Assembly (NCBI GenBank): GCA_021736705.1
Contig: JAIPFI010000004.1
Location: 1-49,096, forward strand
Source of the DNA: Methylococcaceae bacterium
Lineage (GTDB): Bacteria > Pseudomonadota > Gammaproteobacteria > Methylococcales > Methylomonadaceae
Direction: 5' to 3'
Length of the DNA stretch: 49,096 bases
Below the pieces are notes generated by a model. The model made no database searches. It worked only from the letters and a program-made list of their open reading frames with translations, and was not told the DNA's origin. The position numbers were made by a program, and so were the translations under genes. This document shows positions 32,162 through 41,975 of this stretch, one piece after another. Numbering within the stretch: position 1 is the first letter of the stretch; each line of letters opens with the position of its first letter.

Positions 32162-33445
32162 TTGAACTCTCGATTAGTGGCAGCAAATGTTATTGTCAAG
32201 GTATTGTCTGGGAAGTCTTTGACTGTCGCTCTTGAAGAGGCGTGGTCGCAAGTTGCTGATGTGCAGGAACGAGCGTTTATTCAGGCTTTATGCTATGGCA
32301 CGGTACGTCATTATTATCGCTTAGAGTTTATTTTAAATCAGCTGGTTAATAAGCCGATTAAGGATAAAGATGCGCAAATAAAAGCGTTGGCTTTGTTGGG
32401 CTTGTATCAGCTGAATTTTATGCGTGTTAAAGATCATGCGGCGGTGTCTGAAACGGTTGCGGTGATGCAGAAAAAACAATGGGCTAAGTCATTGCTGAAT
32501 GCTGTATTACGCCGTTATTTACGTGAGCAGGATGCGTTGGAGGCGTTGGCTGATAAGCATGTGGCTTATGCGCATCCTGATTGGATGATTAAAGCAATTA
32601 AGTCGGATTGGGGGGATGCCGCGAAGCAAATTCTTTTGGCTAATAATCAGTTGCCGCCGATGAGTTTGCGTGTTAATGCGCGCTTTTGTACACGTGATCA
32701 TTATCTGATAATGCTCGCAGCCGAGGGCATTGAGGGGAGTGCTTTGGCTCACTCAGAACAAGGCATTCTGTTGGCTGAACCTGTTGTTGTCGATAAATTA
32801 CCTCAGTTTGCGCAAGGCTGGGTATCGGTTCAAGACGCCGCAGCACAATTGGCCGCGCAATTGCTGAATGCGCAGCAGGGTGAGCGTATTTTAGATGTGT
32901 GCGCTGCACCGGGTGGTAAGACTGCGCATATTTTGGAGTTGCAGCCGAATCTAAAACAATTGCTGGCTATTGATATTGATGCGCAACGCTTGGTGCGTGT
33001 GCAGGAGAATTTGTCACGCTTGCAGCTTAAGGGTGATTTGTTCGCAGCTGATGCAACTCAGCTTGATGCGTGGTGGGACGGTGTTGAATTTGATCGTATT
33101 TTGCTGGATGCACCGTGTTCGGCTTTGGGGGTTATTAGGCGACATCCAGATATTAAATTATTGCGTCGCGCTGAAGATATTGCTCAGCTACATGTTTTAC
33201 AGCAAGAAATTTTACGAGCAGCTTGGGCTGCGCTGGCATCAGGCGGGGTATTGCTTTATGCGACTTGTTCTATTTTAAAGCAAGAAAATGAAGTGCAGAT
33301 TGAGCAATTTCTTAACGAGCATAGTGATGCTCAAGAGCTAGTTATTCATGCTGAATGGGGTATTAGACGCCCCTTTGGGCGGCAGGTATTGACGGGTAGT
33401 GAGTCTATGGATGGCTTTTATTATGCGCGTTTGCAAAAAAAATAA
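32162..33445 (+). CDS. rsmB: 16S rRNA m5C967 methyltransferase
   Basis: NusB-like N-terminus; LDVCAAPGGKTAHILEL; LLDAPCSALGVIRRHPDIK; TTG start. Confidence 0.96.
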   Translation: MNSRLVAANVIVKVLSGKSLTVALEEAWSQVADVQERAFIQALCYGTVRHYYRLEFILNQLVNKPIKDKDAQIKALALLGLYQLNFMRVKDHAAVSETVAVMQKKQWAKSLLNAVLRRYLREQDALEALADKHVAYAHPDWMIKAIKSDWGDAAKQILLANNQLPPMSLRVNARFCTRDHYLIMLAAEGIEGSALAHSEQGILLAEPVVVDKLPQFAQGWVSVQDAAAQLAAQLLNAQQGERILDVCAAPGGKTAHILELQPNLKQLLAIDIDAQRLVRVQENLSRLQLKGDLFAADATQLDAWWDGVEFDRILLDAPCSALGVIRRHPDIKLLRRAEDIAQLHVLQQEILRAAWAALASGGVLLYATCSILKQENEVQIEQFLNEHSDAQELVIHAEWGIRRPFGRQVLTGSESMDGFYYARLQKK

Positions 33446-33992
33446 GTCACTGATACTAAGTTTTCTTGTGCTGCTAAGCGGCTGGTCTTGGTCTGCATGT
33501 GCTGATGATACATTTGTCAAAATTGAGCAAGCACAGTTAGTCGTGGTTGAGAATCAGGCGAAGCTGCATGCTGATGTGGTGTTTCAGTTAAGTCGCACCG
33601 CTCAAGATGCATTGCATAGTGGCATAGCTTTGTATTGGGATGTTGCTATTGAGTTTAAGCAGGTGCGTTGGGGTGGTTTTTGGCAGGATATTGTTTTTTC
33701 TCAGTCACGGCGATACCGCTTGGCTTATTTTACTTTGCTTAATAATTATCGCGTGCAAGATGAGCAAAAAGATGAGTTTAGGCGCTTTTCCAGTCTTCAA
33801 GAGGCATTAGCTTATCTGGGGAAAATTGTTTACAGCGATATATCTATTTCAGACTATGACCCGCAGCGATGTGTGTCAGGTGTGTTAAAAATTTCTTTTG
33901 ATAAGGAGACATTGCCGGCTCCATTAAGGCCTTTGGCTTATTTTGGTGGTGATTGGGATCTCTCAGCGGAAGAGAGGTTATGGTGCGAGTAA
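33399..33992 (+). CDS. DUF4390 family protein
   Basis: Located between rsmB and ntrY; GIALYWDVAIEFKQVRWGGFWQDIVFSQSRRYRLAYFTLLNNY. Confidence 0.85.
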   Translation: MSLWMAFIMRVCKKNKSLILSFLVLLSGWSWSACADDTFVKIEQAQLVVVENQAKLHADVVFQLSRTAQDALHSGIALYWDVAIEFKQVRWGGFWQDIVFSQSRRYRLAYFTLLNNYRVQDEQKDEFRRFSSLQEALAYLGKIVYSDISISDYDPQRCVSGVLKISFDKETLPAPLRPLAYFGGDWDLSAEERLWCE

Positions 33993-36133
33993 AAATTCCA
34001 TTTAGTATTTCTATGTTTGTTTTGCTGAGTTTTATTGTGCTGTCTTTACAGTTAATGAGCACGGCAATACAGGACACATCACGGCTTGGCGATATGTATA
34101 CTTGGCTGCTCTTGAGTAATGCTGTCGGGACTGTCATTCTGCTTTTGTTGGTGGGATTTAATATTTTTTCCTTGGCTAGGCGGCTTAAGAGGCGGGAGGC
34201 GGGATCTCGCTTAACCACACGTATTGTATTGTTGTTTATTGTCTTATCTTTAGTGCCCGCTGGTGTGGTGTTTTATTTCTCCTTGCAGTTTTTGCATCAG
34301 AGTATTGATAGCTGGTTCAGTGTTGAGCTGGATGGCGCGATGGAGGATTCGCTGGAGCTAAGTCGTGCTTCTTTAGAACAGCGATTACGCTGGGATTTAA
34401 AGCAATCTCAAGGCTTGGCGGAGACGTTGGCGGGGAAGTCGGATGCGGAGATGAGTCTGGACTTGGATCATTTTCGTGAAATAGCGGGTGTCAACGAAGT
34501 CAGCTTGCTTTCGAAAAAAGGAAAAATTATCAGCTTTAGTGGTTTAAGCCCAAGTGATATTTTGCCTAGTTTGCCTGTGTCTCCCTTATTTTTGCAAGTA
34601 CAGCAAAGTAATGATTATGTTGCTCTTGCTTCCGTGAATGGCGAGTTGGTGGTGCAGACGGTCGTTGCCATTAAACCGAAAAATACGCATTATTTACAGC
34701 TTATTTATCCCGTGCCTGAGCGTATTAATGATTTAACGGATTCGGTTGAATTTGCATATGTCAGGTTTCAAGAGATGATGTATTTGCGTCATTCGTTAAA
34801 GACTAGCTTTTCTCTCGTTTTGTCTTTGGTTTTGCTAATGAGTTTACTTGCCGCTATTTCAGCTGCCTTTGTTAGTGTGCGTAGCATTATTGCGCCAATT
34901 CGTGATTTAGTGCGCGGGACACGGGCAGTTTCAGCGGGCGTTTATGGGCAATTGTTGCCAGTGAAGCGCCTTGATGATTTGGGTTTTCTGGTGGAGTCAT
35001 TTAATGAAATGGTGACGCAAATTTCTCGTGCCCAAGATGAAACGCGCAAAAATGTTCAGGAAATTGAGCGTCAGCGGGCTTATTTGGAAACATTGCTAAC
35101 CAGTTTGACTTCGGGCGTATTGAGTTTTGATTCGAGCTTAAATATACGTACAGCAAATCAGGCGGCTAACATTATTTTGCATGTTCAGGTGATGCGTTAT
35201 TATGGTCAAGATTTAATGCAATTGGCGCGAGGTCGCCCTGACTTAATGGGGTTGGCTGAAGTGGTGCAACCGTTACTGGAAAAATCATTTGATATTTGGC
35301 AGCGTAATGTCATTGTTGATGGTCCGGAAGGGCATAGGGAGTTGCTGTGTCAGGGTTCGCCGTTATTTTCTTCGGAGGGCGGTTATATTGGTGCGGTGGT
35401 TGTTTTTGATGATATAACTAATCTAATTCAGGCGCAAAAAAACGCAGCATGGTCTGAAGTGGCACGGCGATTGGCGCATGAAATTAAAAATCCTTTGACG
35501 CCGATACAGTTATCCGCAGAAAGGTTGCAGCATAAACTGGCATCTAAGCTGAAAAGTGAAGATGCTGAAATGTTACAGCGCTCTACTCGAACGATTATTC
35601 AGCAGGTAGAGGCGATGAAGCAGATGGTGGATGCCTTTGCTGAATATGCTCGGCCAGTACACAATAAAGTGGAAGAGTTGGACTTGTTGGCTTTGGTGCA
35701 AGAGATTATGGTTTTATATGGTTCTGATCCGCGTGTCAGCTTTGATTTACAAGTGGAGGGGGATATCCCCTTGATTAAGGCGGATGCGCTCAATATTCGT
35801 CAGGTGCTGCATAATTTGTTTAAAAATGCATTAGAGGCTATGGGTGGAAAGGGGGTCATTACCATAAAGTTAAAAGATGTGAGTCAATATAATGCAGCGC
35901 TTGTGCGCTTGGCTATCTATGACACGGGCTGTGGTGTTGATATTAAGCAAGCAAAGCAGATTTTCGAGCCTTATGTGACAAGCAAGCAGAAGGGCACGGG
36001 ATTGGGTCTGGCAATTGTGAAAAAAGTGATTGAAGAGTTGGGTGGAACTATTCGCTTAGACAGTAAATATACGCAGGGTGCTGGTTTTATTATGCAATTT
36101 CCAGCAGTATTCAAAAGGCAAGGCAAAGACTAA
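33980..36133 (+). CDS. ntrY: NtrY-like sensor histidine kinase
   Basis: Multiple TM segments, HAMP, PAS, EVARRLAHEIKNPLTPIQLSAERL, GTGLGLAIVKKV; ORF open from 33953. Confidence 0.92.
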   Translation: MVRVKIPFSISMFVLLSFIVLSLQLMSTAIQDTSRLGDMYTWLLLSNAVGTVILLLLVGFNIFSLARRLKRREAGSRLTTRIVLLFIVLSLVPAGVVFYFSLQFLHQSIDSWFSVELDGAMEDSLELSRASLEQRLRWDLKQSQGLAETLAGKSDAEMSLDLDHFREIAGVNEVSLLSKKGKIISFSGLSPSDILPSLPVSPLFLQVQQSNDYVALASVNGELVVQTVVAIKPKNTHYLQLIYPVPERINDLTDSVEFAYVRFQEMMYLRHSLKTSFSLVLSLVLLMSLLAAISAAFVSVRSIIAPIRDLVRGTRAVSAGVYGQLLPVKRLDDLGFLVESFNEMVTQISRAQDETRKNVQEIERQRAYLETLLTSLTSGVLSFDSSLNIRTANQAANIILHVQVMRYYGQDLMQLARGRPDLMGLAEVVQPLLEKSFDIWQRNVIVDGPEGHRELLCQGSPLFSSEGGYIGAVVVFDDITNLIQAQKNAAWSEVARRLAHEIKNPLTPIQLSAERLQHKLASKLKSEDAEMLQRSTRTIIQQVEAMKQMVDAFAEYARPVHNKVEELDLLALVQEIMVLYGSDPRVSFDLQVEGDIPLIKADALNIRQVLHNLFKNALEAMGGKGVITIKLKDVSQYNAALVRLAIYDTGCGVDIKQAKQIFEPYVTSKQKGTGLGLAIVKKVIEELGGTIRLDSKYTQGAGFIMQFPAVFKRQGKD

Positions 36134-36138
36134 GAGTA

Positions 36139-37506
36139 ATGAGTGGATATAAAGCAAATATTTTAGTGGTTGATGATGAACCAGATATTCGGCAATTAGT
36201 GCAGGAAATTCTACAGGATGAAGGCTATGTTGTTTATATGGCGGGTAATGCTGAGGAAGCTAGGCAGTTACAGCGGCAACATCAGCCTGATTTAATTCTG
36301 TTGGATATTTGGATGCCTGATACTGATGGTATTACGCTACTCAAGGAATGGGCCGAGAGTGCAGGCTTTGTCGCGCCCGTTATTATGATGTCGGGGCATG
36401 GTACGATTGAAACCGCTGTTGAAGCAACTAAGCTGGGAGCTTATGAGTTTTTGGAAAAGCCTTTGTCCTTGGCTCGATTGCTACTGGTCGTCGAGCGCGC
36501 TATTGATGCGCATATGTTGCAGCGTGAAAATGCAGGGTTAAAGCAGCAGTTACTGAGTGTGAATGAGCCTGTTGGTCGTAGTGCTTTTGCTGAACGAATT
36601 AAAGAGCAGCTAAAGCGCTTGGCTCAGCATGATACGAAAGTGATGTTTGTTGGTGAAAGTGGTGTCGGGAAGGAGGTCTATGCGCGCTTTTTGCATGAAC
36701 GCAGTGGGCGCAAGGCAGGGCCATGTATTGATGTCTCTGTCGGTAGTATTGCACCGGAAAATGCTGCGGTAGAATTTTTTGGTAAAGAGCAGGCGGGTGT
36801 TGTTTATCCTGGTTTACTGGAGCGGGCGCATGGCGGCGTGTTGTTTTTAGCTGAAATAGCAGGCATGGATGCGCAAACGCAATTAAAGTTATTAAGTGCT
36901 CTGGAATCAAGTTCATTTCTGCGTGTAGGCGGAACAGAGCAAGTGCATGTGGATGTACGTGTGATTGTTGCGACGCGGGTTTTGCTGGAAGCCGAAGTGG
37001 CGGCAGGACATTTTCGGCAGGATCTATATTATTTGCTTAATGAGGTAACGATGGAGGTGTTGCCGTTGCGCGAGCATGGTGAGGATGTCCCCGCGCTATT
37101 GCATTTTTATATAGACTATTTTGTGCGCCATGAGAAATTAGCCTATAGGAAGTTTTTGATGTCGGCGCAGAATTTTTTACGTAACTATACTTGGCCAGGC
37201 AATGTGCGGGAATTAAAAAACTTAGTGCAACGATTAATGATCTTAGGTGCTGGTGAAGATATAGAATTAACTGAGGTAAAATCGGCTTTGGGGGCTGTTT
37301 TGGAAACGGCAAGTGTTGCGCCACAAAGTAATGTGCCTGACTTCTTTCAGTTATCATTAAAAGAGGCGAGAGAGCAATTTGAAAAGGCTTATCTTGAATA
37401 TCATTTTGAGAAAAACGAAGGGAATGTTGCTAAATTAGCGGCTGCTGTCGGGGTTGAGCGCACTCATTTGTACCGAAAATTACATGCCCTAAATATAAAA
37501 GAATAA
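36139..37506 (+). CDS. ntrX: NtrX-like response regulator with degenerate AAA+ domain
   Basis: Receiver ILVVDDEPDIRQ...LILLDIWMP; GESGVGKE; Fis HTH GNVAKLAAAVGVERTHLYRKL; motif losses detailed in findings. Confidence 0.9.
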   Translation: MSGYKANILVVDDEPDIRQLVQEILQDEGYVVYMAGNAEEARQLQRQHQPDLILLDIWMPDTDGITLLKEWAESAGFVAPVIMMSGHGTIETAVEATKLGAYEFLEKPLSLARLLLVVERAIDAHMLQRENAGLKQQLLSVNEPVGRSAFAERIKEQLKRLAQHDTKVMFVGESGVGKEVYARFLHERSGRKAGPCIDVSVGSIAPENAAVEFFGKEQAGVVYPGLLERAHGGVLFLAEIAGMDAQTQLKLLSALESSSFLRVGGTEQVHVDVRVIVATRVLLEAEVAAGHFRQDLYYLLNEVTMEVLPLREHGEDVPALLHFYIDYFVRHEKLAYRKFLMSAQNFLRNYTWPGNVRELKNLVQRLMILGAGEDIELTEVKSALGAVLETASVAPQSNVPDFFQLSLKEAREQFEKAYLEYHFEKNEGNVAKLAAAVGVERTHLYRKLHALNIKE

Positions 37507-41060: not shown

Positions 41061-41975
41061 TTAGCGACTCTTGGATATGTCTACACCTGTTTCTTCTAAT
41101 AGAGCAAGGCGTAACTTTTCTATTTCAGCGATATTCGGGATTAAACATATTTTACCTTCAAAGCGTTTGATTCCACCGATAGTACGTTCACGGACTACAT
41201 CGACAATAACTTTCCAGTTAATTTCTTTTTTATCTGCAGCAAAAGCAAATACCAAGGCAAGGTCAGCAAGATTGTTTATTAATCGTGGTACGCCACTGGA
41301 ATAATAAAAAAGAGCAGCACAAGCAGAGGGAAGGAAGATATTTTCTGTGCTACCTGCTACTTTTAAACGGAAATTAATATATTGTTCTGTTTCTTCATAA
41401 TTTAGTGGCGTCAGGTGGTATTCTATTGAAATCCTTTGGGAAAATTGTATCAGTTCTGGTTGGTTAAGTTTATCTACTAATTCTGGTTGACCAACAAGAA
41501 TCAGTTGTAACATGATTTGCTGCTCGGTATTAATGTTGGACAGTAAACGTAATTCTTCGAGTGTTTGGATGTCCATGTTTTGTGCTTCATCAACGATAAG
41601 CACAACGCGAATGCCGGCATTGCTTTTTTGGGTTATAAATTTGACGAAAGCATTATATTGATCTGCTTTGTTAGATGCCGTGGATTCAATATTAAATGCT
41701 GCTAACACCCATGTTAATAGGCTGCCAAATGCGCTATGTGTATTGGTAATCAACCCGACTTCGCATTGAACCTCAATTTTTTTTAATAAGCTACGTACTA
41801 GTGTTGTTTTTCCAGAGCCAATTTCACCTGTTATAACTGTGAATCCTGCTTGACTTACTAAACCATACTGTAGTGTTGTCAGCGCTTTTTTGTGTTTTTG
41901 GCTTAAAAATAGAAAGCTTGGGTCAGGAATTAGCGAAAATGGTTTTTTTGTAAGACCGTAAAACTTAGTATACAT
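41061..41975 (-). CDS. ExeA/MshM-like AAA ATPase
   Basis: MYTKFYGLTKKPFSLIPDPSFLFLSQKHKKAL; ITGEIGSGKTTLVRSLL; VVLIVDEAQNM. Confidence 0.9.
   Translation of the reverse strand: MYTKFYGLTKKPFSLIPDPSFLFLSQKHKKALTTLQYGLVSQAGFTVITGEIGSGKTTLVRSLLKKIEVQCEVGLITNTHSAFGSLLTWVLAAFNIESTASNKADQYNAFVKFITQKSNAGIRVVLIVDEAQNMDIQTLEELRLLSNINTEQQIMLQLILVGQPELVDKLNQPELIQFSQRISIEYHLTPLNYEETEQYINFRLKVAGSTENIFLPSACAALFYYSSGVPRLINNLADLALVFAFAADKKEINWKVIVDVVRERTIGGIKRFEGKICLIPNIAEIEKLRLALLEETGVDISKSR

Follow-up and report, generated by a model that had tools for sequence, protein, structure and literature searches.

The question raised by this locus is what a response regulator of the NtrX type can still do once the sigma-54 engine at its centre has come apart. 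The window, meaning the whole 49,096-nucleotide stretch analysed here (contig JAIPFI010000004.1, Methylococcaceae bacterium), encodes such a protein, in which a sequence-only reading had described a dismantled AAA+ engine between intact receiver and DNA-binding domains. The open reading frame, its coordinates and all of the motif strings quoted in that reading are present in the window (Table 1). The protein is very probably a regulator that is switched by phosphorylation and independent of sigma-54, its AAA+ domain serving as a non-hydrolysing scaffold, perhaps one that binds nucleotide.

The gene is the final member of an rsmB-DUF4390-ntrY-ntrX order, which is that of Bordetella PlrPSR and of other beta- and gammaproteobacterial NtrYX systems (PMC13001219). 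ntrY ends 5 bases upstream of ntrX, and the regulator that carries the acceptor Asp56 is adjoined by its cognate kinase, with HisKA and HATPase domains. NtrX and DUF4390 were found together in 168 of 276 genomes (Fisher p 3e-51), while NtrY lies upstream of NtrX in 64 of 67 testable loci and DUF4390 was also detected in 54. Pfam assigns Response_reg, Sigma54_activat, AAA_lid_14 and HTH_8 to the window NtrX. The best NCBIfam model is NF051870 (NtrX), and since its 447 bits fall below the curated equivalog cut-off of 600, the protein is filed as a PlrR-type NtrX by synteny and tree and not as an equivalog member. The best match among solved proteins in the PDB is Brucella NtrX (E 5e-100), and the closest named relative is from Methyloprofundus sp. 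(93% identity), the host being a Methyloprofundus-like methanotroph. Scans for promoters and terminators gave nothing beyond chance. Further along the window, at 41061-41975 on the opposite strand, an ExeA-like AAA ATPase gene is flanked by the ffh-to-rplS block and by a gene for a RapA-like helicase.

Table 1. Features of the ntrX locus, in window positions.
Feature	Position	Strand	Basis
rsmB-like gene (16S rRNA m5C methyltransferase), opens the conserved rsmB-plrP-ntrY-ntrX order	32162..33445	+	sequence and synteny with PMC13001219
DUF4390 (PlrP-type) gene, start codon uncertain	33399..33992	+	PF14334, E 1.9e-32
ntrY (PlrS-type) sensor histidine kinase, NtrY_N-HAMP-PAS-HisKA-HATPase, start codon uncertain	33953..36133	+	Pfam
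ntrX (PlrR-type) response regulator, 455 aa, REC-AAA+-Fis HTH	36139..37506	+	uninterrupted ORF, Pfam, NCBIfam, PDB match
Receiver domain, residues 7-121, phospho-acceptor Asp56 at 36304-36306	36157..36501	+	Pfam PF00072
AAA+ core, residues 143-308, catalytic residues lost	36565..37062	+	Pfam PF00158; AlphaFold model
Walker A GESGVGKE, intact, Lys178	36652..36675	+	alignment
Glutamate-switch Asn position (PspF N64), Ser200	36736..36738	+	alignment
L1 loop FFGKEQAGVVYPGL, GAFTGA absent, 5 residues shorter than NtrC1	36775..36816	+	alignment
Walker B GVLFLAEI, Asp to Ala238 (codon GCT, 36850-36852), Glu239 kept	36835..36858	+	alignment
Sensor I VIVATR, Thr279 kept	36961..36978	+	alignment
RxDxxxR reads RQDLYYL, R-finger Arg293 and Asp295 kept, second Arg is Leu299	37015..37035	+	alignment
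AAA+ lid domain, sensor II Arg357 kept (WPGNVREL, 37192-37215)	37063..37278	+	Pfam PF25601
Fis-type HTH, residues 405-452	37351..37494	+	Pfam PF02954

The state of the AAA+ motifs was read from an alignment to NtrC1 (1ny5), NtrC4 (3dzd) and Brucella NtrX (5m7n). Among the motifs that define a bEBP, Walker A is present, and GAFTGA, the hhhhDE form of Walker B (here LFLAE) and RxDxxxR are not. The loss of GAFTGA claimed from sequence is borne out by this alignment, and the motif occurs neither elsewhere in the protein nor in any of the six frames of the window. Similarly, the replacement of the Walker B Asp by Ala stands, with no displaced hydrophobic-DE Walker B elsewhere in the protein, in which the sole hhhD[DE] match is the receiver VVDD. 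The retention of Walker A, the receiver Asp and the Fis HTH was also correctly described. Other parts of the description were overstated. The Arg-finger region was listed as lost and Leu299 does sit at the position of PspF R168, the equivalent of which in NtrC1 is R299 (PMC7175178), but the genuine R-finger of PspF is R162 (PMC3419264), and its equivalent, Arg293, is kept. The VIVATR string listed as a lost sensor I is present, but its Thr279 is kept, and canonical activators themselves have N or H at the neighbouring position that is changed. Nor is the length of the domain fully preserved, given the shortened L1 loop. In addition, the switch Asn, a loss absent from the earlier list, has become Ser.

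Studies of PspF mutants provide a guide to what these substitutions would cost. The Asp-to-Ala change in the window Walker B is the same as PspF D107A, in which Vmax falls from 39.5 to 0.23 per min while Km barely changes (250 to 300 uM), and PspF R168A has a Vmax of 0.17 per min and a Km above 4.5 mM (PMC3419264). With the equivalents of D107 and R168 lost and the L1 tip gone, ATP-driven opening of sigma-54 promoters by the window NtrX is not credible. By analogy with these mutants its ATPase activity has probably been lost, and ATP binding without turnover, as the sequence-only reading had suggested, is a good sub-hypothesis.

A survey of relatives, recommended in that reading, covered 271 NtrX proteins from the window's own family (n=59), other families of its order (n=17), the rest of the class (n=164) and alphaproteobacteria (n=31), together with 19 canonical sigma-54 activators, and it showed the motif losses to be clade-wide and not particular to the window protein. 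GAFTGA is found in 19/19 canonical activators and in none of the NtrX proteins, whether from the family (0/59), elsewhere in the order (0/17), other class members (0/164) or alphaproteobacteria (0/31). The earlier remark that some alphaproteobacterial NtrX proteins are without GAFTGA extends to 31 of 31, all of which keep Walker A, Walker B and both arginines. The Walker B Asp is kept in 31/31 alphaproteobacterial proteins, 10/17 from the order, 73/164 from other gammaproteobacteria and 0/59 from the family, in which the position holds G (33), S (17), A (8) or T (1). The R168 equivalent is likewise kept in every alphaproteobacterial protein (31/31), in 38/164 other gammaproteobacterial ones and in none from the order (0/17) or the family (0/59). 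Because both losses are seen in 59/59 family orthologs, they are not due to chance or sequencing error. The Walker A Lys is retained in 31/31, 59/59 and 17/17 proteins from alphaproteobacteria, the family and the order, respectively, and in 104 of the 164 other gammaproteobacterial proteins, the motifs of which are variously eroded. The phospho-acceptor Asp56 is conserved in 271/271.

A FastTree phylogeny of 278 rows placed the window's family in one clade (97) and the alphaproteobacterial proteins in another (100), with the bEBPs separate (98). Counted on a tree built without the trait columns, the state of the Walker B Asp needs about 32 changes and that of the Walker A Lys 14, although counts of this kind are inflated by errors in the tree. 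Read most simply, the pattern means that the NtrX motor was first uncoupled from sigma-54 and that the catalytic site was then repeatedly eroded within the class. Some class members (L270, L271 and L273) have lost most of the L1 region and Walker B and retain the lid and HTH. A second, divergent NtrX type (L074, L075, L133 and L138; 63-65% identity) occurs in genomes assigned to the same genus by placement or by name; its sensor II Arg is replaced by Ala (NVAEL), and its AAA+ domain is diverging faster than REC.

In two genomes the domain has gone altogether. The NtrX proteins of L261 (G447, from 3852) and L266 (G341, from 3691) comprise 234-240 codons with a receiver and a Fis HTH and no AAA+, a short Ala/Ser/Thr-rich linker taking its former place (Pfam was run on the G447 protein). 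Their receivers are 61-62% identical to that of the window, and they stand in the same rsmB-DUF4390-ntrY-ntrX order, with DUF4390 found by Pfam in both genomes. Betaproteobacterial NtrX has also been reported without an AAA+ domain (PMC13001219).

A genome without detectable sigma-54 provides a further line of evidence. Besides the host, four NtrX-bearing genomes gave no rpoN match, and only one of them, G411 (1.7 Mb, 98% complete, no Sigma54_DBD or Sigma54_CBD Pfam match), was counted as evidence. It has kept ntrYX, and its NtrX (L311, contig 23), the only Sigma54_activat match in the genome, has lost the Walker A Lys, the Walker B Asp and RxDxxxR while keeping the REC Asp and the HTH. As a single draft genome it is not proof, yet it is as sigma-54 independence predicts. 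G326 and G521 were set aside because each carries about a dozen activator domains, rpoN being probably just missing from these assemblies, and G286 was rejected as ambiguous. The host itself does have rpoN, which was found truncated at positions 2-484 of L276 (contig 157), downstream of lptA/lptB-like genes and with its N-terminus at the contig end; its missing PF04552 match is thus an assembly gap, and the idea of a host lacking sigma-54 was dropped. The host genome also encodes several canonical sigma-54 activators. The sigma-54 independence proposed earlier is strongly supported by the absence of GAFTGA from all 271 NtrX proteins, the AAA+-less orthologs in the same gene order and the one genome that keeps NtrX without detectable rpoN.

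The selection analysis that had been suggested was also carried out. Among eight close orthologs dN/dS was about 0.045 for REC, 0.058 for the AAA+ core and 0.019 for the HTH, values that are approximate because dS is near saturation (about 1.5). The HTH is the slowest-evolving part within the closest clade, and the low ratio in the AAA+ core indicates that this domain is still constrained by purifying selection. In comparable genome pairs, identity between NtrX proteins is 66-75% for REC but 55-64% for the AAA+ core; for canonical activators the corresponding ranges are 55-70% for REC and 70-84% for AAA+. The relative constraint is therefore inverted, REC being the more conserved in NtrX and AAA+ in true sigma-54 activators. 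An AlphaFold model of the window NtrX (mean pLDDT 85) has an intact AAA+ fold that matches the AAA+ domains of FleQ and FlrC (TMt about 0.9, rmsd 1.8-2.0). Over the full length the model comes closest to the structures of Brucella NtrX, the ATP- and ADP-bound ones among them, and VpsR is also among the matches, but because domain placement is uncertain the full-length TM-scores are low (0.5) and only the AAA+ match was used.

Taken as a mechanism, this would mean that NtrY phosphorylates NtrX at Asp56 and that phospho-NtrX binds DNA through its Fis HTH, raising or lowering transcription by sigma-70-type RNA polymerase without any ATP-driven opening of sigma-54 promoters. Phosphorylation control is suggested by the conserved Asp56 and the adjacent kinase, and dependence on sigma-70 is likely from NtrX and NtrC precedents. 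For example, Sinorhizobium NtrX depends on a phosphorylated receiver Asp, recognises CAAN2-5TTG palindromes and controls ctrA, gcrA and dnaA (PMC9223101), and NtrC proteins without GAFTGA work at sigma-70 promoters (PMC10274813). The AAA+ domain would be unable to touch sigma-54 with the L1 GAFTGA gone, or to turn over ATP usefully with the Walker B Asp, switch Asn and second trans Arg gone. It may persist as a folded scaffold that serves dimer geometry and signalling between the domains, and a nucleotide is quite possibly still bound to it. Some points count against this explanation. Slow hydrolysis could still occur, because Glu239, Thr279, Arg293 and the sensor II Arg357 are retained. Caulobacter NtrC has no GAFTGA, yet in vivo it depends on residues of Walker A and B (PMC10274813), and so some sigma-70-acting relatives still use ATP. 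Moreover, with rpoN and canonical activators in the host, NtrX could have an indirect sigma-54 role, such as through mixed oligomers.

Beyond the motif losses, nothing suggests that the gene is a pseudogene or the product of an assembly or sequencing error. Its open reading frame is uninterrupted and under strong purifying selection, and orthologs that are 91-93% identical carry the same substitutions in independent assemblies, which refutes this explanation and leaves it next to no probability. It is also very unlikely that the protein still activates sigma-54 through a non-canonical contact in place of GAFTGA. The overall bEBP fold with its Sigma54_activat match and the coexistence of rpoN and canonical bEBPs in the genome would fit such a contact, but every NtrX examined is without the L1 tip, the catalytic Asp is lost, and there are orthologs without any AAA+ as well as an NtrX in a genome without detectable sigma-54.

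The preferred explanation, a non-hydrolysing AAA+ domain in a phosphorylation-switched regulator, also has a sharper form, in which the domain is actively kept as a sensor of ATP (or ADP) that binds ATP stably without turnover. Bound ATP would then set the conformation or oligomer state of NtrX, and the cellular nucleotide level would modulate phospho-signalling. This is quite possible, if a little below an even chance. Lys178, Gly172/175/177 and Arg293 never vary across the family (59/59), although just 23% of the AAA+ core positions are invariant, and only small residues (G/S/A/T) occupy the Walker B Asp position, which belongs to the 15% of core positions that vary most. The nearest solved structures are of Brucella NtrX bound to ATP and ADP, and the Km of PspF D107A is near normal. 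However, the family descends from one ancestor and its invariance is perhaps partly inertia, the loss of R168 lifted the PspF Km above 3 mM, and the replacement of the Walker A Lys in 60/164 proteins elsewhere in the class makes nucleotide binding dispensable for NtrX in general. The invariant Walker A of the family suggests that nucleotide binding matters, while the R168-equivalent loss and the dispensability of Walker A elsewhere point the other way. The domain could instead be a passive remnant heading for deletion, kept for folding or spacing and with no nucleotide role, which we consider possible, if somewhat less likely than not. The AAA+-less orthologs in the same gene order, the patchwork of losses on the tree and the divergent same-genus proteins L133 and L138, without the sensor II Arg (L133 has 55% identity in AAA+ vs 75% in REC), would be consistent with slow decay, but the AAA+ core dN/dS of about 0.06 is similar to that of REC and Walker A is invariant within the family. 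The intact frame, this approximate dN/dS, the family-wide fixed pattern and the intact REC and HTH favour repurposing, as the sequence-only reading had argued, over plain decay.

A broader proposal can be offered tentatively, and it may well not hold. In Methylococcaceae NtrX the AAA+ domain would have ceased to be a motor and become a nucleotide-gated switch that does not hydrolyse, with ATP held by the invariant Walker A and R-finger and never cleaved, and with phosphorylation by NtrY integrated with nucleotide state. Gammaproteobacterial NtrX proteins would then record the passage from motor to dead nucleotide sensor, scaffold and finally deleted domain within one orthologous gene. Alphaproteobacterial NtrX without GAFTGA and betaproteobacterial NtrX without the AAA+ domain are already known; no description of the gammaproteobacterial intermediates, with clade-specific catalytic losses and a preserved fold, was found in the literature searched, the coverage of which excluded most subscription papers. 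These proteins form a graded natural series on the role of AAA+ in a response regulator after its motor function ends, and their annotation as 'sigma-54-dependent' is very probably wrong.

Compared with known systems, the window NtrX shares its AAA+ fold, Walker A, first trans Arg and sensor II with Aquifex NtrC1 and NtrC4 and with PspF, whereas the GAFTGA, Walker B Asp, switch Asn and second Arg of those proteins are all missing from it. The ligand of Vibrio VpsR is c-di-GMP. Regulators of the VpsR/VspR type also have a bEBP fold that acts without sigma-54 (for VspR, PMC10274813), but they belong to another family and use another ligand. The NtrC proteins of Rhodobacter capsulatus and Caulobacter, without GAFTGA, are similarly bEBP-derived and act on sigma-70 promoters, although they belong to the NtrC lineage; R. 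capsulatus NtrC needs ATP binding, and Caulobacter NtrC apparently requires the residues for hydrolysis as well (PMC10274813 and references therein). Brucella abortus NtrX (PDB 5m7n/5m7o/5m7p), crystallised with ATP and ADP, is the best sequence and fold match and has the same REC-AAA+-Fis architecture, with Walker A kept and no GAFTGA. It reportedly has no ATPase activity, in work attributed to Fernandez et al. in 2017. However, in the NtrX proteins of Brucella and 30 other alphaproteobacteria the Asp of Walker B and the two trans arginines are all present, while the window NtrX is without the Asp and the second Arg. Alphaproteobacterial ntrYX adjoins ntrBC (PMC13001219), whereas that of the window follows rsmB-DUF4390. 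With Bordetella PlrPSR and the betaproteobacterial NtrYX systems the window shares the rsmB-DUF4390-kinase-regulator order, an adjacent NtrY-type kinase and a regulator with REC and a C-terminal DNA-binding part, but its downstream gene is ffh and not trkA, and where the beta regulators are reported to be without AAA+ (PMC13001219), the window NtrX keeps a full-length AAA+ domain without the catalytic residues.
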